Position numbers and translations under genes: made by a program. 43,408 nucleotides of DNA from Thermodesulfovibrionia bacterium (lineage in GTDB: Bacteria; Nitrospirota; Thermodesulfovibrionia; UBA6902; BMS3Bbin08), in the NCBI GenBank assembly GCA_030694425.1, contig JAUXYI010000027.1, forward strand, positions 1-43,408. The letters run 5' to 3'. Below the pieces are notes generated by a model. The model was not told the DNA's origin and did not search any database. It saw only the letters and a program-made list of their open reading frames with translations. Each line of letters begins with the position of its first letter. The stretch's first letter is position 1. This document shows positions 3,487-43,408 of the stretch, piece after piece.

Positions 3487-6400
3487 TTACCCCTTGAATC
3501 CTTTTGTTTCATTATATTCTTTTGCCTGATGCATAAATGCCTCAAGTTGAATTTCAGAACAGTTTGCCTCTGTTCCGTCATAAGCAATGTTGAAACACGG
3601 AATGCTTGCCTCCTGTTTAAGCCCTTTTAGCATAGCGCTTACAATAGTGCCGGGCATACAGCCAAAAGGCATGACATTAATTATACCTGAAGCGCCATTT
3701 TTTACATAGTCTATTGCTTTTCCAACGCTTAAAATTGCTTCACCTTCAAATGAATCATGTAAGTAAGGAGAAGCATTCCTGAGTATTTCTTCTATGGGCG
3801 GCTCTTTAAGGGTCTTAAGAAATCCTTCAAAAGGTCTTGATAATTTATGTTCAATCTTTTTTTGAACGAATCGCGTTGTTATTATACTAAGGATATCCTG
3901 TATGCTTTTTTTAGAGAAGATGTTATCCCGCCATATGGTTAAAGCCTTACGTAATCCCATCATATTTATGTAGTAAATCCATTCTTCAAAAGGTGCAAGC
4001 CATACTTCACCGCCAAGGGCTTCAACTTTTTTAATAATATTTTCATTTGAGAAGGCATTGTGCCTTACAAATATTTCTCCTATAATGCCGATAAGAGGTT
4101 TCTTTTCCCTGGACTTTGGTATGATAGCAAATGCCCTGCGGGTTTCATGCAGAAGTTCATCAAAAGCGCCATTTTGACTCTTAACCATCCTGCTCATTCT
4201 TAAGAGATATTCATTATATAAAGCATCTGTTTCTCCTGCGTTAATTTCATATGGTCTTATCTCATGGAGACATTTGATAAGGAGCTCTATTGCAATAATG
4301 CCTTTCCATGCCTCCTTCGTAAAATCATTCCCGATGATGCCTATTTCTTTATAAAAAGAGGCATCCTGATTAGGGGAAAATATCGGTATCTCTGGGAACC
4401 CTGCCTTGTCAAGCACAAGGCGGTGGAAAATATTATACTGTCCAAAACGGCATGGGCCTGAACCAGAAGGCATGAAGAAAACCGCCCTTTCAGGGTCAAA
4501 ATCACTTGACAAAGTCTTCTTCACCATATCGCCAGTAGTAATAAGGCATGGGTAACATTCTTTTCCTGATACAAAACGCCTGCCTACTTTTACGGTCTCA
4601 ATATCAGGGGCGTCCATTACCTCAGCGTCAAGCCCGCATTTTTCAAAAGCAGCAGCAAGTCCAAAGGCATGGTCTGACATCCTTGGAATATATACAGTAC
4701 GTCTTTGGAAACGAAGCGGATAGCGATTAGCAGTTGGTCTTTCACTAACAGCTATCTGCTTACTGCTAACTGTCTTTATGTTGCTGATGCTGTCAATAAA
4801 TGCCTCGCACCTTGTGATAATTCCGGCATCCGCGCTGTGCTCGTCAATCTCAATCTGAAGAAATGGTTTCTCAGCCATTGTTTCTTTAAAAAACCTGTGT
4901 ATAAAGGAATCAGGGCCGCAGGAAAAATTACCTATATAGAGCGCATAGAGTTTCGGGTAATTTCTGATTATCTCAGCTGCCTTTAAAATGTTTTGTCCGG
5001 ACCCCCAGTACATATTAGGCCATGTTTTTGTTATGTCAACAGTTTCTAATGGCAAATAGTCCATTGGAATGGACAAAACCCCGAGACTGGAAAGTTTTTT
5101 AGGGATTTCCATATTAACGCCGGGGTCAAAGGCATTGTACGAACGCCCGACTATAATAATTGTTTTTTCATTTGCTTTTTCTAATATTTCTTTCCCACGG
5201 CTTTTTATTGCTGAGATGAATTTCTTCTGCGATTTTTCAGCCTGCAATACCGCCTTTTTTATTACGTTCATTGAAATCCGGAACGGTTGGAACACCCTGT
5301 GTATTTCCTTTAAAAATTGTTTTTCCCCTGATTCAAAATTAATCACGGGACTGAGAACCTTTACCCCGCTTTCCTTGAAGGCAATGTTTGTGAAATATGG
5401 CATGGTTTGCACATACGGACAGGCAAGGCTTCGCATTGAACCATTATCAGCATTTAGATTTATAAAACTCGGGATTAAAACTGCCTCGACTCCCCTGTCA
5501 ATTAAATCTTTTATATGTCCATGAGCCACTTTATGAGGGAAACAGCTTTCCGCAAGAATAGTCTCTATTCCCTTGTTTATAATATTCCTATTTGTCTTAT
5601 CTGATATTTCTGCCTTGAAGCCGAGTTCCCATATAAGCGTGCTCCAGAAAGGCAAAAAATCATGGAAGAAAAATATCCTTGGTATGCCTATCTTTACCCT
5701 ATCAGAAAATCCCCCCTTGCCCCCCTTTAATAAAGGGGGGATGGGGGGATTTGAATATTCTCTATGAGATTTTGTAAGAAGTTCTTCCCTCTCCGCAAAT
5801 AAATCAGGAAGCTTTGTTGAATCAGTATATTTTTTCTTGCGCTTTACATCATATTTTTCGCATCTGCTGCCATAGAAAAGAGGGTCCTTCTCTCCCTCTA
5901 TCTGAACCCTGTTAATCTCGCAGATATTGTCACAGCCTTTGCACTCAAAAGACTTTATTTCATATCCTCTTTTAGAAAGGTCAAAACCTTTAAAGCGTGA
6001 CGAGTTACTAGTGACAAGTGACGGGTCAGTAATCCCCCCCTGCCCCCCTTTAGTAAAGGGTGGTAAGGGGGGATTTTCTGTGTTCTGTGCTCTGTGTTCT
6101 GCGTTCTGACTCTCCATGTGTTTCATCACAATGATTGCCATGCCTATGGCGCCGGTTACATCATGATGAGGAGGGACAATGATTTTTTTATTCAGGTACT
6201 CTTCAAATGCAGCAACAACTGCCTTATTAAAAGCTACACCGCCCTGAAAAAATATCTTTTTGCCAACTGGTTTGTCTCCGACCACCCTGTTAATGTAATT
6301 CTGAACTATTGAATATGAAAGCCCTGCAACAAGGTTTTCTTTGGACACTCCGCGCTGCTGTCTTGATAGAAGAGAATTTTCCATAAATACTGTGCATCTT

Positions 6401-7836
6401 TCTCCCAGACATGAAGGGCACTGTGATTTAAATGCTATGTCACTGAATTCTTCTTTTATTGATATATCCAGTTTCTCTGCCTGCTCTTCCAGAAACGAGC
6501 CTGTTCCTGCAGCGCACGCCTTGTTCATCTCAAAATCAACAATGATACTGTCTTTTATTGAAATGTATTTTGAATCTTGCCCCCCGATTTCAAAGATTGT
6601 ATCAACCTCAGGGTCTATCTCCACTGCTGCCCGCGCCTGAGCAGTGATTTCATTTTTTACGATATCTGCCCCAACAAAATCAGCAATCATATACCGTCCG
6701 GAACCGGTAGTGCCTACTCCAAGAATCTGAACCTTATCGCCAATTTCCTGTCCTATCTCGCCGAGTCCTTGTTTTACTGCCTCAATAGGTCTTCCGGCGG
6801 TCATCAGGTATCTTTTAGAAAGAAGTTTTCCTTCTTCATCAATAACAGCAAGGTTTGTACTTATTGACCCGATATCTATGCCGAGATAAGCATTAATTTT
6901 TTCAGAGTCCAGAGACCAGAACTCAGAACCCAGATTTGTTTTATCTGTAGTCTGTGCTCTGTAGTCTGTGGTCTGTGGTCTATGCCGGAGGGGTTTATGC
7001 CCTTTTTCTTCACTTCTCTGAGAGGAAATAAAGTCTTTAAGTTTTTCAATATCATAATGATTTTTAACTCCCTCTTCTATATATTTCAGGGCTGCCCCTA
7101 TTGCAGGCATCAATGCAAAGTGTTCAGGGATTAAAAGGTTTTCAAGTTGAAAAACTTCTTTAAATGCCCTCACAACGCCTTTATTCGCTGCCACTCCTCC
7201 CTGAAAACTCACAGGCAACGGCAAAACTATATTTTTAGCTATACTGCCCTTAAAATTTCTTGCAACAGCAAAACAAAGGCCTGCAACAATGTCATATACT
7301 GGAGTTGCTATCTGTTGGAGGTGAATCATATCGGATTTTGCAAAGACACTGCACCGCCCGGCAACACGAGGCGGATTTTTTGATTTTAATGTGCTCTCGC
7401 TAAACTCTTCTATACTGAGTCTCAATCTTTCAGCCTGCTGGTCAAGAAAAGAGCCTGTGCCTGCGGCACAGACTGAATTCATAGCAAATTCTTTTACCTT
7501 GCCGTCCTCAAGAATAATAAGCTTTGAATCTTCACCGCCCATTTCAATAATGGTCCTGATTTCGGGATAAAATCTTTTGGTTGAATAACTTTGAGCTATC
7601 ACCTCATTTACAGGCTCTATGCCAAACGCCTGAGCAATAATTTTTCCTCCGGAACCTGTAATGCTAAGTGAGGCTGACTGGTCTATCCCGATGAGTTGGG
7701 ACAGGAGTTCATATGCTACTGTTAGAGGCTTTCCTTTATGTCGGACATAGTTTGTTTCAAGGATACTGCCCTTTGCATCTAAAACTGCGATCTTTACACT
7801 GACAGAACCAGCATCAAGCCCTATAAATTTTTCCAT
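3487..7836 (-). CDS. Double acyl-CoA dehydratase activase (HgdC/BcrA-like) fused to DUF2229 and HgdB-like domains
   Basis: The 1449 residues hold two ASKHA ATPase modules (about 1-265 and 316-580). Each begins with an ATP-binding pattern (GLDAGSVSVKIAV; GIDIGSISTNLAV). Each keeps both cysteines that hold the interface [4Fe-4S] cluster in HgdC: CAAGTGSF near residues 119 and 442, then RCSVF and RCTVF. After a cysteine motif (CKGCDNIC) comes a DUF2229 region (GIPRIFFFHDFLPFW) and a C-terminal dehydratase-like part with CYPC, GSGPCRFG and GCMPG motifs. Known relatives use ATP to drive low-potential electron transfer to 2-hydroxyacyl-CoA dehydratases or benzoyl-CoA reductases; the substrate here is unknown. 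Repeat-derived stretches interrupt it at residues 275-310, 588-602, 695-710 and 1015-1036 without breaking the frame. It lies 12 nt downstream of the MTH1187-type gene. Confidence 0.88.
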   Translation of the reverse strand: MEKFIGLDAGSVSVKIAVLDAKGSILETNYVRHKGKPLTVAYELLSQLIGIDQSASLSITGSGGKIIAQAFGIEPVNEVIAQSYSTKRFYPEIRTIIEMGGEDSKLIILEDGKVKEFAMNSVCAAGTGSFLDQQAERLRLSIEEFSESTLKSKNPPRVAGRCSVFAKSDMIHLQQIATPVYDIVAGLCFAVARNFKGSIAKNIVLPLPVSFQGGVAANKGVVRAFKEVFQLENLLIPEHFALMPAIGAALKYIEEGVKNHYDIEKLKDFISSQRSEEKGHKPLRHRPQTTDYRAQTTDKTNLGSEFWSLDSEKINAYLGIDIGSISTNLAVIDEEGKLLSKRYLMTAGRPIEAVKQGLGEIGQEIGDKVQILGVGTTGSGRYMIADFVGADIVKNEITAQARAAVEIDPEVDTIFEIGGQDSKYISIKDSIIVDFEMNKACAAGTGSFLEEQAEKLDISIKEEFSDIAFKSQCPSCLGERCTVFMENSLLSRQQRGVSKENLVAGLSYSIVQNYINRVVGDKPVGKKIFFQGGVAFNKAVVAAFEEYLNKKIIVPPHHDVTGAIGMAIIVMKHMESQNAEHRAQNTENPPLPPFTKGGQGGITDPSLVTSNSSRFKGFDLSKRGYEIKSFECKGCDNICEINRVQIEGEKDPLFYGSRCEKYDVKRKKKYTDSTKLPDLFAEREELLTKSHREYSNPPIPPLLKGGKGGFSDRVKIGIPRIFFFHDFLPFWSTLIWELGFKAEISDKTNRNIINKGIETILAESCFPHKVAHGHIKDLIDRGVEAVLIPSFINLNADNGSMRSLACPYVQTMPYFTNIAFKESGVKVLSPVINFESGEKQFLKEIHRVFQPFRISMNVIKKAVLQAEKSQKKFISAIKSRGKEILEKANEKTIIIVGRSYNAFDPGVNMEIPKKLSSLGVLSIPMDYLPLETVDITKTWPNMYWGSGQNILKAAEIIRNYPKLYALYIGNFSCGPDSFIHRFFKETMAEKPFLQIEIDEHSADAGIITRCEAFIDSISNIKTVSSKQIAVSERPTANRYPLRFQRRTVYIPRMSDHAFGLAAAFEKCGLDAEVMDAPDIETVKVGRRFVSGKECYPCLITTGDMVKKTLSSDFDPERAVFFMPSGSGPCRFGQYNIFHRLVLDKAGFPEIPIFSPNQDASFYKEIGIIGNDFTKEAWKGIIAIELLIKCLHEIRPYEINAGETDALYNEYLLRMSRMVKSQNGAFDELLHETRRAFAIIPKSREKKPLIGIIGEIFVRHNAFSNENIIKKVEALGGEVWLAPFEEWIYYINMMGLRKALTIWRDNIFSKKSIQDILSIITTRFVQKKIEHKLSRPFEGFLKTLKEPPIEEILRNASPYLHDSFEGEAILSVGKAIDYVKNGASGIINVMPFGCMPGTIVSAMLKGLKQEASIPCFNIAYDGTEANCSEIQLEAFMHQAKEYNETKGFKG
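5708..5752. repeat. PPxPPxxKGG palindrome inside the activase gene (copy 1)
   Basis: A near-perfect palindrome of C-runs, a tttaataaa centre and G-runs. Read leftward it encodes NPPIPPLLKGGKGG (residues about 695-710), between the cysteine motif and the DUF2229 domain. Confidence 0.9.
6031..6075. repeat. PPxPPxxKGG palindrome inside the activase gene (copy 2)
   Basis: The same family, encoding NPPLPPFTKGGQGG (residues about 588-602). It is flanked by two word-like repeats, one encoding QNAEHRAQNTE and one made of agtgacgagttactagtgac-type units. Confidence 0.9.
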
Positions 7837-27081: not shown

Positions 27082-27362
27082 TCAGGCTGTCCCATAACCC
27101 TAAAACCTTGCATCAGTCATCCTGAGCCCTTCGCTTTCTGTCATTCTGAACCCTTCGCATGTCATTCTGAGCCCTTCGCATGTCATTCTGAGCGAAGCGA
27201 AGAATCTCATCTTTCTGCTCAGGATAAACTCCGTGAAGAATCTCTTTGCCTCACTCAGGGTAAACTCCGCGAAGAATCTAATCCCGATTGGGTCGGGACA
27301 ATGTATTTCAAAATAGAGATTCTTCGGCTAATGCCTCAGAATGACATTTTGGGACAGCCTGA
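27082..27362. mobile_element. MITE-like element with 13-bp terminal inverted repeats
   Basis: TCAGGCTGTCCCA (27082-27094) is matched perfectly in inverted form at 27350-27362. The 281-bp interior is made of tandem tgtcattctgagcccttcgc units and their reverse (gaagaatct...cagaatgacat), with a tcccgattgggtcggga palindrome. There is no coding capacity, so mobilisation would be in trans. Confidence 0.75.
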
Positions 27363-31264: not shown

Positions 31265-32197
31265 TTAAATTTTTGAATACATTTCCTCTGCATTCATTGA
31301 ACTTCTTGCCATCGGAGATGAAGCAACAGCCTTAAATCCCATTTCAAGCGCTTTGATTTTATAATGCTCAAAAACCTCGGGTCTTATGTAATCAACCACG
31401 GGAATATTTCCCTTTCGCGGTCTCAGGTATTGCCCTATTGTCAAAAAATCACATCCTGCATCTCTCAGGTCTCTCAAAACTGATAAAACCTCTGCGTCTT
31501 TTTCGCCAAACCCTAACATGATACCTGATTTAGTCTTTATATGGGGATAAAGTATCTTAGCCGAATGAAGTATATTTATTGATGTCAGATAATCAGCCTT
31601 TGGTCTTACAGTTGCATAAAGTCTCGGGATGGTTTCAACATTATGGTTGAATACATCTGGAGATGCATTGAGAACGGTTCTCAGCGCCTCTAAATCTCCC
31701 TTAAAATCAGGAGTTAGAACTTCAATTTTAATCTTTTCACCTGATAATCCCCCCATCCCCCCTTTAGTAAAGGGGGGTAAGGGGGGATTATTTTCATTGT
31801 TCTTTATGTTGCTGTGTAACATGTTTGTTTCATTTTTGAGTTTTAGAGCCTGTATTGTTTTTGCAAAATGCCCTGCCCCTCCGTCAGGCAAATCATCCCT
31901 TGTTACTGAAGTAATAACAACAAACTTCAAACCAAGCGTTGAAGCTGCCTCCGCAATCCTCTCCGGTTCATCAGGGTCAAGCGGTAAAGGGCTGTTTGAT
32001 TCAACAGCGCAAAAAGAGCAGTTTCTTGTACATCTGTCGCCGAGTATCATAAAAGTTGTTGTGCCGCTTGAAAAACATTTCCCCTGATTAGGGCACTTCG
32101 CCTCTTCGCAAACAGTAGATACCCTGTAATGCCTCAGGATTTTTTTGGTCTGGTGTGTACCGGATAACTGTACTTTTAACCATTCAGGATGACGCAT
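31265..32197 (-). CDS. lipA: Lipoyl synthase
   Basis: This radical SAM enzyme inserts two sulfurs into octanoyl groups. The auxiliary-cluster motif CEEAKCPNQGKC and the radical-SAM motif CTRNCSFC are both present, followed by VVITSVTRDDLPDGGAGHF and the closing ARSSMNAEEMY with the conserved RSS. Residues about 122-152 hold an insert of about 30 residues (word-like part, then NNPPLPPFTKGGMGG) just before IKIEVLTPDF, where family members have a short loop. The start overlaps bioD by 14 nt, so lipA and bioD are co-transcribed. Confidence 0.95.
   Translation of the reverse strand: MRHPEWLKVQLSGTHQTKKILRHYRVSTVCEEAKCPNQGKCFSSGTTTFMILGDRCTRNCSFCAVESNSPLPLDPDEPERIAEAASTLGLKFVVITSVTRDDLPDGGAGHFAKTIQALKLKNETNMLHSNIKNNENNPPLPPFTKGGMGGLSGEKIKIEVLTPDFKGDLEALRTVLNASPDVFNHNVETIPRLYATVRPKADYLTSINILHSAKILYPHIKTKSGIMLGFGEKDAEVLSVLRDLRDAGCDFLTIGQYLRPRKGNIPVVDYIRPEVFEHYKIKALEMGFKAVASSPMARSSMNAEEMYSKI
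31746..31789. repeat. PPxPPxxKGG palindrome inside lipA
   Basis: A 44-bp palindrome with a tttagtaaa centre. Leftward it encodes NPPLPPFTKGGMGG; read rightward the same DNA gives NPPIPPLVKGGKGG, so either orientation is an open frame. Confidence 0.92.
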
Positions 32198-33839: not shown

Positions 33840-35153
33840 TTAAATTTTGAACTTATCCAGCCTTTCTAAAACCAAGCCTATATCCTTATCTGTATGCGCT
33901 GCAGTAACTGAAAATCTTATCCTGCACTTTTCTTCAGGCACTGTTGGCGGTCTTATTGCAGGGGCAAATATTTTATTCTTATAAAGATAGTTCCCCATTT
34001 TTAAGGCGCTCTTTACATCACCCGCCAAAATAGGGATTATCGGCGTTTCTGAATTTAATGTATCGTAGCCGAGATTTTTAAGACCCTGATAAAGTTTTAC
34101 TCTATTGGCCCATAATTTTTTTCTCAAGCTATCTGACTCGGAATTGACTATATCTATTGCCTTTATGCATGCCTCTGCTATCGCAGGCGGAAGCGATGTT
34201 GAATAAATAAAACTCCTTGCCATGTTTATCAGAAAATCTATTAAATCTTTTGAACCAGCCGCAAAACCCCCGAAACATCCAAATGCCTTGCTCAGTGTCC
34301 CCATCTGTATTATGCCCTGAGCTGAGCTTGCCGAAGCTTTAATGTCAAAATGCTCAAGCCCTCCCCTGCCTGTTCTCCCGAGAACACCTGTTCCATGTGC
34401 ATCATCAATCATGAGCATCGCACCATATTTCTTACTAAGAAAGACTATGTTTTTTAGCGGCGCTATGTCTCCATCCATGCTGAATATAGTGTCTGTGATT
34501 ATCAGTTTTTTAGCAGAAGATTTTGCCAAACAATCCCCCCCTCCCCCCTTTACTAAAGGGGGGTAAGGGGGGATTGTTTTCCTTGTCTTTTGTGCTTCTA
34601 CATGACATGTTTGTTTTAGGAGTTTCTCCAAATGATCCATGTCCCTGTGTCTGAAAATTTTTACTTTTGCCCTTGAAAGTTTTATGCCGTCTATAATGCT
34701 TGCATGGTTAAGTTCATCGCTGAAAATAGTGTCTTCATCTCCAACAAGTGCAGGTATAATTCCAGTGTTTGCAGAATAGCCTGTATTAAATACCAGCGCT
34801 GCTTCAGTTCCTTTAAATCTTGCTATTTTCTCTTCAAGCTTTTTGTGAGGGATATAAGAGCCGCTTAAAAACCTTGATGCGCCTGAACCAAACCCGTATT
34901 TCCCGAGAGCCTTTGCAGCAGCTTCTGCAATTCTATGGTCTTTTGATAATCCAAGATAATCGTTTGAAGAAAAATTAATATACCTTTTCCCGTTGATTGT
35001 AATTCTTGACCCGATAGATGACTCAATATATGTGAGTTTTCTTACAAGGCTATTTTTTTTAAGCTCTCTCAGCTTTTCAGCAAAACGCTTATTTTCTTTG
35101 AGTCTGTGTTCTGTGTTCTGTGTTCTGTGTTCTGCTTTTTTAAACCCCTTCAT
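33840..35153 (-). CDS. bioF: 8-amino-7-oxononanoate synthase
   Basis: This PLP enzyme joins pimeloyl-CoA (or -ACP) and alanine. Motifs: RYINFSSNDYLGLSKDHRI, YGFGSGASRFLSGSYIPHKKLE, SDELNHASIIDG, FSMDGDIAPL, IDDAHGTGVLG and the PLP lysine in MGTLSKAFGCFGG. The 437 residues exceed the usual 385-390 because of two repeat-derived parts: the N-terminal AEHRTQNTEHRL and a loop insert at about 178-213 containing IPPYPPLVKGGGG, just before KKLIITDTIFSMDGD. The start overlaps the queE end by 14 nt. The adjacent AlaC-type enzyme could supply alanine. Confidence 0.94.
   Translation of the reverse strand: MKGFKKAEHRTQNTEHRLKENKRFAEKLRELKKNSLVRKLTYIESSIGSRITINGKRYINFSSNDYLGLSKDHRIAEAAAKALGKYGFGSGASRFLSGSYIPHKKLEEKIARFKGTEAALVFNTGYSANTGIIPALVGDEDTIFSDELNHASIIDGIKLSRAKVKIFRHRDMDHLEKLLKQTCHVEAQKTRKTIPPYPPLVKGGGGDCLAKSSAKKLIITDTIFSMDGDIAPLKNIVFLSKKYGAMLMIDDAHGTGVLGRTGRGGLEHFDIKASASSAQGIIQMGTLSKAFGCFGGFAAGSKDLIDFLINMARSFIYSTSLPPAIAEACIKAIDIVNSESDSLRKKLWANRVKLYQGLKNLGYDTLNSETPIIPILAGDVKSALKMGNYLYKNKIFAPAIRPPTVPEEKCRIRFSVTAAHTDKDIGLVLERLDKFKI
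34532..34575. repeat. PPxPPxxKGG palindrome inside bioF
   Basis: The same 44-bp palindrome family, with a tttactaaa centre, encoding IPPYPPLVKGGGG leftward. It is flanked by additional non-family sequence (HVEAQKTRKT). Confidence 0.92.
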
Positions 35154-38243: not shown

Positions 38244-38330
38244 TGTCATTGCGAGCCCGAAGGGCGTGGCAATCTCGCTTTTACGCCTGAAAAACAGAGA
38301 TTGCCTCGTCGCTACGCTCCTCGCAATGAC
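38244..38330. repeat. GTCATT-type dispersed element
   Basis: tgtcattgcgagcccgaagg to gctcctcgcaatgac, related to the pair at 41171 and 41622. Confidence 0.85.
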
Positions 38331-38353
38331 GCTTTAATTATGCAAGGTTATAT

Positions 38354-41170: not shown

Positions 41171-41262
41171 TGTCATTGCGAGCTGAAGGCGAAGCAATCT
41201 CGTCTTTTGGGAGTGCTCTAAACGAATGAGATTGCTTCGGGACTTCATCCCTCGCAATGACA
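41171..41262. repeat. 92-bp GTCATT-type element, twin of the copy inside pmbA
   Basis: It begins tgtcattgcgagctgaaggc and ends cctcgcaatgaca. It differs from the copy at 41622-41713 at about seven positions and has the same length. Confidence 0.9.
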
Positions 41263-41352: not shown

Positions 41353-42834
41353 TCACGCGCTTATATCCATTTCTCCTATCAAAAGACTCGGGGAGCCGAT
41401 TTTGCCATAAAATTTCAAATCGCTGCCTACCCTCTCTATTCTTTTGAATAATTCAAGCACATTGCCTGACATAACAGCCTCTTTAATCGGATATTTAATT
41501 TCTCCATTTTCTATCCATAGGCCTGAAATACCTACGGAGAAATCTCCAGAAATAGGATTAGCAGTATGCACGCCCATCGCTTCAAGGACTAAGATTCCTT
41601 TGGACACGGATTTTACCAATCTGTCATTGCGAGCCGAAGGTGAAGCAATCCCGTCTTTTGGGACTGCTCCAAACGAATAAGATTGCTTCGGGACTTCGTC
41701 CCTCGCAATGACAAGCGAGGGGGGCTTTGGTTCTATATATAAATTCGTTACACCCACACCGGGCAGGGTTTTAAAGCCTCCTCTGACAGCATTTCCTGTA
41801 GAGACAGTTCCTTCTTTCTTTGCGGTATAAGTATTATGAATAAAACCTGTGAGAGCGCCTTTAGAGACAATCATTTTTTTTGAAGTTGGGACTCCTTCAT
41901 CATCAACAGGCTTTGTGCCGATTCTCCATGGCATAAGTCCGTCATCAAAAATATTTACGATAGGGCTTATTATATTTTTTCCGATTTTATTAGCAAGAAA
42001 TGACCTCTTCTTCTGTACAGCCTCTGCAGATAATGATGAACTGAAAATGCCAAGAAAATCTGATGCAACTGACGAATCAAGTATAACAGGGATTCTAACA
42101 GAAATAATCTTTCTTGAACCAAGCAAATCAATTGCTTTTTTTGATGCTGCTTCAGCAATTGAACCAAAATCTATATCACTCAACCTCCTGCTAACCGCAA
42201 AATCCCAGCCGGTCTGCATATCGTGCCCATCGTCTGCAAGTGTAGTTACAGAAGCAGTAATGGAACTGCTATCATAAGAAACTTTTATACCTTTTGAGCT
42301 AAAGATTGTGGTGCTGCCTGATGCAAGGGCAACCTCCGCCTTTCTTACTTTCTTAATCCTTGAATCAAAATCAAGCGCTGTCTTTTCAAGAAACAAGGCA
42401 TTGTTAATGACATCGTTTTCTTTCATGCTTTCAATTTTTTCATCAAAAACCAATGCCTCTGAGGAAGCAACCCCCACCAGCCCCCCTTTAACCCCTCTGT
42501 ATCCCCCCTTAGTAAGGGGGGAATTAAAGGGGGGTAAACTGGGGATGTCAATATATTTATCTTCTGCCGTCCATTTAGCGCCCTCAACAGCCTCTCTTAC
42601 CATATCTTCAAGTCCCGAACTCTCGGGATTTGTGGTAAAAGAAAATCCCAGCCTATGATTTTTAATAACCCTTAAGGATATTCCAAAATCTTTGGCTGAA
42701 TTTAATGCCTCCACGCCATTATTTTTTACCTCCACAGAAAATCTCTTTGCAGTTTTAATAAAAACTTCAGCTTCATCGCATCCCTTGCTAATAGCATCTT
42801 TAACAGCATCGGCGGCTAATAAGGTTACATCCAT
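41353..42834 (-). CDS. pmbA: TldD/PmbA-family metalloprotease component (PmbA/TldE type)
   Basis: The family pattern is clear: NNGVEALNSAKDFGISLRVI, DDEGVPTSKKMIVSKGALTGFIHNTYTAKKEG, RGGFKTLPGVGVTNLYIEP, and NPISGDFSVGISGLWIENGEI near the C-terminus. The TldD zinc motif HExxxH is absent, so it is the PmbA/TldE-like subunit; no tldD is seen in the window. TldD/E process small peptides and protein partners such as microcin B17 precursor and CcdA. The 493 residues include two repeat-derived inserts: about 95-118 (PSLPPFNSPLTKGG, C/G-run palindrome) and about 374-404 (GTCATT-type element). It is convergent with the PGPGW gene. Confidence 0.92.
   Translation of the reverse strand: MDVTLLAADAVKDAISKGCDEAEVFIKTAKRFSVEVKNNGVEALNSAKDFGISLRVIKNHRLGFSFTTNPESSGLEDMVREAVEGAKWTAEDKYIDIPSLPPFNSPLTKGGYRGVKGGLVGVASSEALVFDEKIESMKENDVINNALFLEKTALDFDSRIKKVRKAEVALASGSTTIFSSKGIKVSYDSSSITASVTTLADDGHDMQTGWDFAVSRRLSDIDFGSIAEAASKKAIDLLGSRKIISVRIPVILDSSVASDFLGIFSSSLSAEAVQKKRSFLANKIGKNIISPIVNIFDDGLMPWRIGTKPVDDEGVPTSKKMIVSKGALTGFIHNTYTAKKEGTVSTGNAVRGGFKTLPGVGVTNLYIEPKPPSLVIARDEVPKQSYSFGAVPKDGIASPSARNDRLVKSVSKGILVLEAMGVHTANPISGDFSVGISGLWIENGEIKYPIKEAVMSGNVLELFKRIERVGSDLKFYGKIGSPSLLIGEMDISA
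41622..41713. repeat. 92-bp GTCATT-type element inserted in frame in pmbA
   Basis: It encodes VIARDEVPKQSYSFGAVPKD and IASPSARNDR between NLYIEP and the VSKGILVLEAMGV helix, where family members have a short loop. It is open through its whole length in the pmbA frame. Confidence 0.92.
42481..42534. repeat. Nested C-run/G-run palindrome inside pmbA
   Basis: CCCCCCTTTAA (42481-42491) and TTAAAGGGGGG (42524-42534) enclose a ccccccttagtaagggggg hairpin. It encodes FNSPLTKGGYRGVKGG, a variant of the PPxPPxxKGG family. Confidence 0.85.
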
Positions 42835-43309: not shown

Positions 43310-43408
43310 AATGTCATTGCGATCCCGATATTTCGGGACGAAACATCGGGACGACGAAGCAATCTCTAACTCATTGATTTCTTTAACTGCGAGATTGCTT
43401 CGCGGAGT
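43287..43408. mobile_element. Left part of a MITE-like element, cut by the window edge
   Basis: It starts caggctgttgaaaaacccc, then an inner tgtcattgcgatcccgatat palindrome unit with tttcgggacgaaacatcggg and aagcaatctc...gagattgcttcgcgg. The right terminal repeat is not in the window. Confidence 0.6.

Follow-up and report, generated by a model that had tools for sequence, protein, structure and literature searches.

The pmbA locus and its insert

The window, that is, the whole 43,408-nt stretch of DNA analyzed, carries on its minus strand an intact 493-residue frame for pmbA/tldE (41353..42834), a gene of the TldD/PmbA metalloprotease family. Pfam detects all three PmbA_TldD domains in the protein, and the AlphaFold (AF2) model, computed from a 57-row alignment (pLDDT 88.1), matches TldE/PmbA crystal structures with Z 36-41, so that domains and fold agree on the assignment. 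Within the gene, at 41622..41713 (minus strand), repeat search, ORF and folding delineate a 92-bp imperfect palindrome that is open in the pmbA frame. The frame crosses it without a stop (NLYIEP-KPPSLVIARDEVPKQSYSFGAVPKDGIASPSARND-RLVKSVSKG), the element encodes the peptide VIARDEVPKQSYSFGAVPKDGIASPSARND (hereafter the VIA..RND frame), and PmbA_TldD domain 3 spans the insert. The element ends in 12-nt perfect terminal inverted repeats (TGTCATTGCGAG/CTCGCAATGACA), as miniature inverted-repeat elements (MITEs) do, and it folds far beyond shuffled sequences (z -4.5 as DNA, z -5.9 as gene-strand RNA). An Rfam search of the whole window at the gathering threshold gave no match to a known RNA family.

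A twin of the same length, detected together with the pmbA element as a close repeat pair ~360 bp apart, lies at 41171..41262 (minus strand), in the intergenic region that separates the 3' end of pmbA from a small gene. The two differ at seven positions, and the coordinates, length and twin given in the initial annotation all hold. Next to the pmbA element, at 41714..41728 (minus strand), is a C-rich flank (CCCCCC..TCGCTT in the gene sense), a non-native loop sequence that also accompanies the pmbA insertions of two other genomes, G004 and G007, and is partly present in the twin. The shared unit is thus a few bases longer than 92 bp and reaches into this flank. The pmbA copies of the source genome (G000), G004 and G007 have the C-rich flank and some bases in common that are missing from the twin, and from this sequence comparison the twin may be a derived copy. 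We considered the pmbA element as a simple recent copy of the twin and tentatively set this aside on account of the shared flank and bases. A more diverged TGTCATTGCGAG-family copy, recognized by sequence match, lies outside any long ORF at 38244..38331 (plus strand), and a related TGTCATTCTGAG-type element at 27181..27346 (plus strand). A TGTCATTGCGA-type element starts near the right edge of the window (43312-43408), past the start of a short ORF.

The pmbA gene carries a second in-frame insert, a C-rich palindrome at ~42471..42545 (minus strand) with the peptide PPFNSPLTKGGYRGVKGGLVG. Only two segments of the structure model fall under pLDDT 50, residues 106-123, which are the C-rich palindrome insert, and residues 373-401, which are the VIA..RND element. 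Placed on the TldE fold as the initial annotation had proposed, the element is thus a low-confidence segment of an otherwise well-fitting model, which suggests that 373-401 is an exposed disordered loop. The annotation had also put the gain at about 31 residues. Extra residues are indeed present, but relative to orthologues with a short loop the protein gains ~24-29 net and not a clean 31, because native loop residues have been replaced.

A dispersed repeat family in and between genes

To place the element in its genome, we collected its relatives: BLAST returned 35 matches in the 2.42-Mb source genome, and the end GTCATTGCGAG occurs there in 170 exact copies (88 + 82), while the reversed control occurs in none (0 + 0). 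With its 92-bp length and its folding, the element is thereby a palindromic repeat in the sense used for Rickettsia palindromic elements (RPEs). We examined 73 distinct copies, drawn from the first 100 of the 170 end matches, the BLAST loci and the window. Of these, 18 lie within long reading frames, 16 ORFs in all, each of 120 residues or more and extending no fewer than 25 residues past the copy on each side. All but one (L216) of the 15 copy-bearing ORFs scanned against Pfam gave a match; the genes include GidB/RsmG, PriA, MnmE, QueH, Glyco_hydro_3, Phage_integrase, N6_N4_Mtase and PmbA, and in at least seven ORFs (GidB, MnmE, QueH, PriA and PmbA among them) the match spans or brackets the insert. 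The source genome therefore carries the family in frame in conserved protein genes, as RPEs are carried, with 16 ORFs counted, two of which are doubtful: in L200 the copy falls ahead of where an acetolactate-synthase-type gene probably starts, and L206, with its 160 residues, is the one ORF outside the Pfam scan. In two integrase-type genes, L213 and L014, a VIAR element precedes the integrase domains at comparable positions, and L014 looks internally deleted relative to L213.

We then compared the 57 copies that have both ends, 12 of them genic under a stricter rule (ORF of 150 residues or more, with 30 to either side of the copy) and 45 non-genic. The VIA..RND frame is used in 9 of the 12 genic copies (p 0.009 for frame), and the length is divisible by three in 9/12 genic versus 18/45 non-genic copies (p 0.03). 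Among 395 genomes of the phylum, the same peptide also occurs in frame in the CheA of a distant genome, where a CheW-like domain spans it. The initial annotation had read the twin as direct evidence that the family inserts into coding sequence; the twin alone is no such evidence, but the claim itself is borne out by the other genes and by the presence or absence of the element in orthologues, described below.

REP elements, which are typically extragenic, offer one parallel, since the source genome likewise combines dispersed palindromes with seven Y1_Tnp genes of the kind found in REP/RAYT systems. The parallel breaks down at the Y1_Tnp loci, as TGTCATTGCGAG-family ends are absent from the fetched flanks of six of the seven and a single end is present at one (L128). 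These loci give no convincing RAYT link, and no transposase with matching ends was found among the Y1_Tnp genes.

C-rich palindromes occur in frame in other genes of the window as well, all on the minus strand. One, at 31746..31789, encodes the peptide NPPLPPFTKGGMGGL in a lipoyl-synthase-like (LipA-like) radical SAM gene (31265-32197). Another, at 34532..34575, encodes IPPYPPLVKGGGGD in a class I/II aminotransferase gene (33840-35153) that we take to be BioF/KBL-like. Two more, at 5708..6075, lie in a BcrAD/DUF2229 activase fusion gene (3487-7836). In the lipoyl-synthase-like protein, NPPLPPFTKGGMGGL and neighboring extra residues fall within the Radical_SAM match; the aminotransferase also has an N-terminal AEHRTQNTEHR tandem-repeat peptide, and the fusion protein, 1449 residues long, has a tandem-repeat peptide besides its two C-rich palindrome peptides.

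Repeat-filled loops in orthologous proteins

We inspected the PmbA loop, defined as the stretch between NLYIEP and the next segment, in 30 of the 45 genomes of the order with a PmbA match. The loop is short (9-14 residues) in 11 of the 30, none of which has a repeat motif, and long (16-58 residues) in the other 19, with a recognizable motif in 15 and none in four; the motif classes were defined only after the loops had been viewed. The VIA..RND element sits at the same nucleotide of pmbA in three of the 30, namely G000, which belongs to family f1, and G004 and G007, which belong to another family, f2. Of the three other genomes of the source family, two (G001 and G003) gave a PmbA match, in neither case with the element. 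A search of the 395 genomes of the phylum located the peptide in PmbA only in G000 and G004, G007 having come from other searches. The possibility raised at the outset, that homologues throughout the phylum carry the same peptide, is thus at odds with its absence from two same-family genomes and its few carriers in the phylum.

These data bear on the reading that the segment is a native functional extension of PmbA and that no repeat was inserted. That three genomes from two families have it at one position would fit, but most orthologues lack it and its DNA belongs to a repeat that recurs across the genome, in intergenic positions as well as in other genes. Presence/absence and repeat data together refute a native extension, to which we assign almost no probability; as far as the compared sequences go, the pmbA element is a non-native insertion.

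The loop is occupied by mutually unrelated sequences: the TGTCATTGCGAG palindrome (three genomes, one with a nested second element), a C-rich palindrome, a GGGCGGGTTT-AAACCCGCC palindrome, GTCAG tandem-like sequence and GGATTCAAGG-like repeats. In the pmbA of G007 (L099), a TGTCATTCTGAG-type element is nested in the TGTCATTGCGAG element with the frame kept, giving a loop of 58 residues. Of all residues inserted across 57 homologues, 52% fall in one of the two PmbA loops and 24% in the other. G005 and G006, members of one genus, have pmbA DNA that is 90.6% identical, yet the content of both loops differs, those of G006 holding a C-rich palindrome and a GGATTCAAGG repeat; the content has been replaced and not simply added to. 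The comparison with related genomes proposed in the initial annotation hence yielded the expected difference in presence and absence, but the target duplication it had looked for was not recognized by eye at the filled and short pmbA sites, because the loop sequence has been replaced and not cleanly interrupted.

MnmE and QueH, compared in 29 and 30 sequences of the order, respectively (G000 included; one MnmE fragment, L292, was dropped), behave in a related manner. In MnmE, the loop after NKxDLPQ holds 89% of all inserted residues and measures 18-96 residues in 18 of the 29 sequences and 11-17 in the remaining 11. By eye, its fillings are of at least four unrelated kinds, the VIPAKAGIQ..PGQARND, GAGFKPAL, PLTKGG and VIAS..QND types, and one filling type, GGGCGGGTTTNAAACCCGCC, is a dispersed repeat, present in 23 of 47 genomes with as many as 85 forward matches (control 0). 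The structure model obtained for MnmE is weak (pLDDT 71.7, pTM 0.46), and within the insert confidence is low only at 349-379. The MnmE insert of the source genome (L224/L269) contains tandem copies of DEILRGVYPEQK and MRRAQND, a pattern that suggests expansion of the repeats after insertion. In QueH, the insertions are spread over several positions of one segment.

The account that we regard as highly probable is that the pmbA element arose by in-frame insertion of a dispersed palindromic, MITE-like repeat into a length-tolerant, probably exposed and disordered TldE/PmbA loop, and that such loops are refilled repeatedly. Several unrelated repeat families would have spread through the genomes of one Nitrospirota order, moving as non-autonomous elements, as 12-nt inverted ends and strong folding suggest, and landing both in genes and between genes. 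Genic copies would survive only where the frame is open and the loop tolerates extra residues, and the inserted peptide would be translated and near-neutral for the enzyme. Because of this double requirement, one small set of loops (two of PmbA, one of MnmE and one segment of QueH) would be refilled or replaced repeatedly by different repeats in different lineages. Selfish DNA thus seems to be accommodated by these bacteria at a few permissive loops of their proteins, and the filled loops show, as natural maps, where a conserved enzyme can take up tens of additional residues.

Near-identical elements in saturated genes and relation to known systems

Chance landing and tolerance do not readily explain why, in the sequences at hand, a near-identical element occupies the same nucleotide in G000, G004 and G007, together with the same following codons (RLVKS) and the shared non-native C-rich flank. 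Among the three genomes the element is 91-94% identical (88-94% at third positions), whereas the rest of pmbA is 67-71% identical and saturated, with 0.44-0.48 at 4-fold sites (binomial p 1e-6 to 1e-7). Directly next to the element, the 30 codons to each side show no greater likeness at 4-fold sites. Between G004 and G007, 89 nt of the element are identical. MnmE presents a similar case in G006 and G007, whose inserts agree at 122/135 nt and at 15/16 4-fold sites, versus 61/141 4-fold sites elsewhere in the gene. The pmbA gene tree groups G000 with f1 (support 86/74) and G004/G007 with f2 (100/95). A recent transfer of the whole pmbA gene was rejected because the flanking codons are saturated and the tree follows the families, the f1 fork having support of only 86/74. 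The description of the element as recent or homogenized in the initial annotation stands only in part: the element is near-identical in three genomes with saturated host genes, so the likeness of the twin does not fix the age of the insertion in the source genome.

The near-identity looks homing-like. A site-recognizing recombinase, or short-patch transfer between species, could have delivered the C-rich flank and the 92-bp element repeatedly to one pmbA position in different lineages. Such delivery would account for an element more alike than its surroundings, for its presence on both sides of the f1/f2 division of the gene tree and for the MnmE case, and also for the identical 89 nt in G004 and G007, in neither of which a comparable donor copy was found elsewhere in the genome (the next best is 78% in G004 and partial in G007). 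However, these drafts are 84-87% complete and may lack donor copies, and the subfamily consensus is stable across families, the next-best copies among 230 genomes of the class being the G333 CheA (87%) and one in G009 (81%), so copies inserted independently out of a slowly changing pool can resemble one another. In addition, the same PmbA loop hosts other repeats and is thus not reserved for one element. On balance we consider homing-like delivery to pmbA rather unlikely. Somewhat more doubtful is its generalization, in which loops of housekeeping proteins would be docking sites with exchangeable repeat cassettes delivered or swapped at one position, also between species; if this were true, a loop would be a slow protein-diversification cassette and not a mere tolerant spot.

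A single insertion dating back to the ancestor shared by f1 and f2, subsequently lost in relatives and otherwise kept almost unaltered by a DNA/RNA hairpin constraint or gene conversion, would explain the identical junctions in the three genomes, including the C-rich flank and RLVKS, as well as the further nested insertion in G007. It demands, however, near-absolute conservation of synonymous sites in an otherwise saturated gene and losses in G001, G003, G005 and G006, and gene conversion predicts that the closest copies lie within each genome, which was not found for G004 and G007. We judge this history improbable. The near-identity could be the outcome of independent insertion out of a slowly changing pool, of homing-like targeting or of extreme conservation, and the choice among these is limited because the drafts are incomplete.

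Inteins and homing introns are more alike than their host genes and occupy a fixed site in distant hosts. The pmbA element resembles them by analogy only in these two respects; it is 92 bp long, has no endonuclease and no splicing domain, and the residues that it adds are predicted to remain part of the protein.

The nearest parallel is offered by the palindromic elements of Rickettsia and their Wolbachia equivalents, for which in-frame palindromic inserts in conserved genes have hitherto mainly been discussed. As described in the literature, they lie in frame in conserved protein genes, are ~100-150 bp long (105-146 bp quoted), occupy solvent-exposed places and include an element in an active Rickettsia guanylate kinase that is translated with it (PMC2229807, PMC10969869, PMC3767692). 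In the open-licence literature, including searches with sequence strings, we found no earlier report of such elements in Nitrospirota, where they occur in many housekeeping genes and unrelated families converge on the PmbA and MnmE loops. That different RPE groups occupy one gene across species has been left undecided between hotspots and one diverged insertion (PMC3767692). In the Nitrospirota, several unrelated families, tandem-type and C-rich ones included, share one loop, which favors hotspots in these loops.

The Coxiella elements QMITE1 and QMITE2 and other bacterial MITEs are also short inverted-repeat elements, with ~50 or more copies, some of which overlap ORFs (PMC5896051). By that account, QMITEs are 150-400 bp long and have direct repeats, whereas no direct repeats were recognized for the pmbA family, several of whose insertions, unlike those of the QMITEs as described, lie in the middle of a conserved domain.

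The pmbA element would thus work like the RPEs (RPE-1 to RPE-10 as described), being a slightly shorter palindromic repeat in frame in conserved genes, although we claim no membership: the likeness is drawn from the published description of the RPEs, and the RPE hosts are intracellular alphaproteobacteria whereas the present host belongs to Nitrospirota. RPE-4, RPE-6 and RPE-7 are described as rich in ATGAC, and the pmbA element has ATGAC at its ends.
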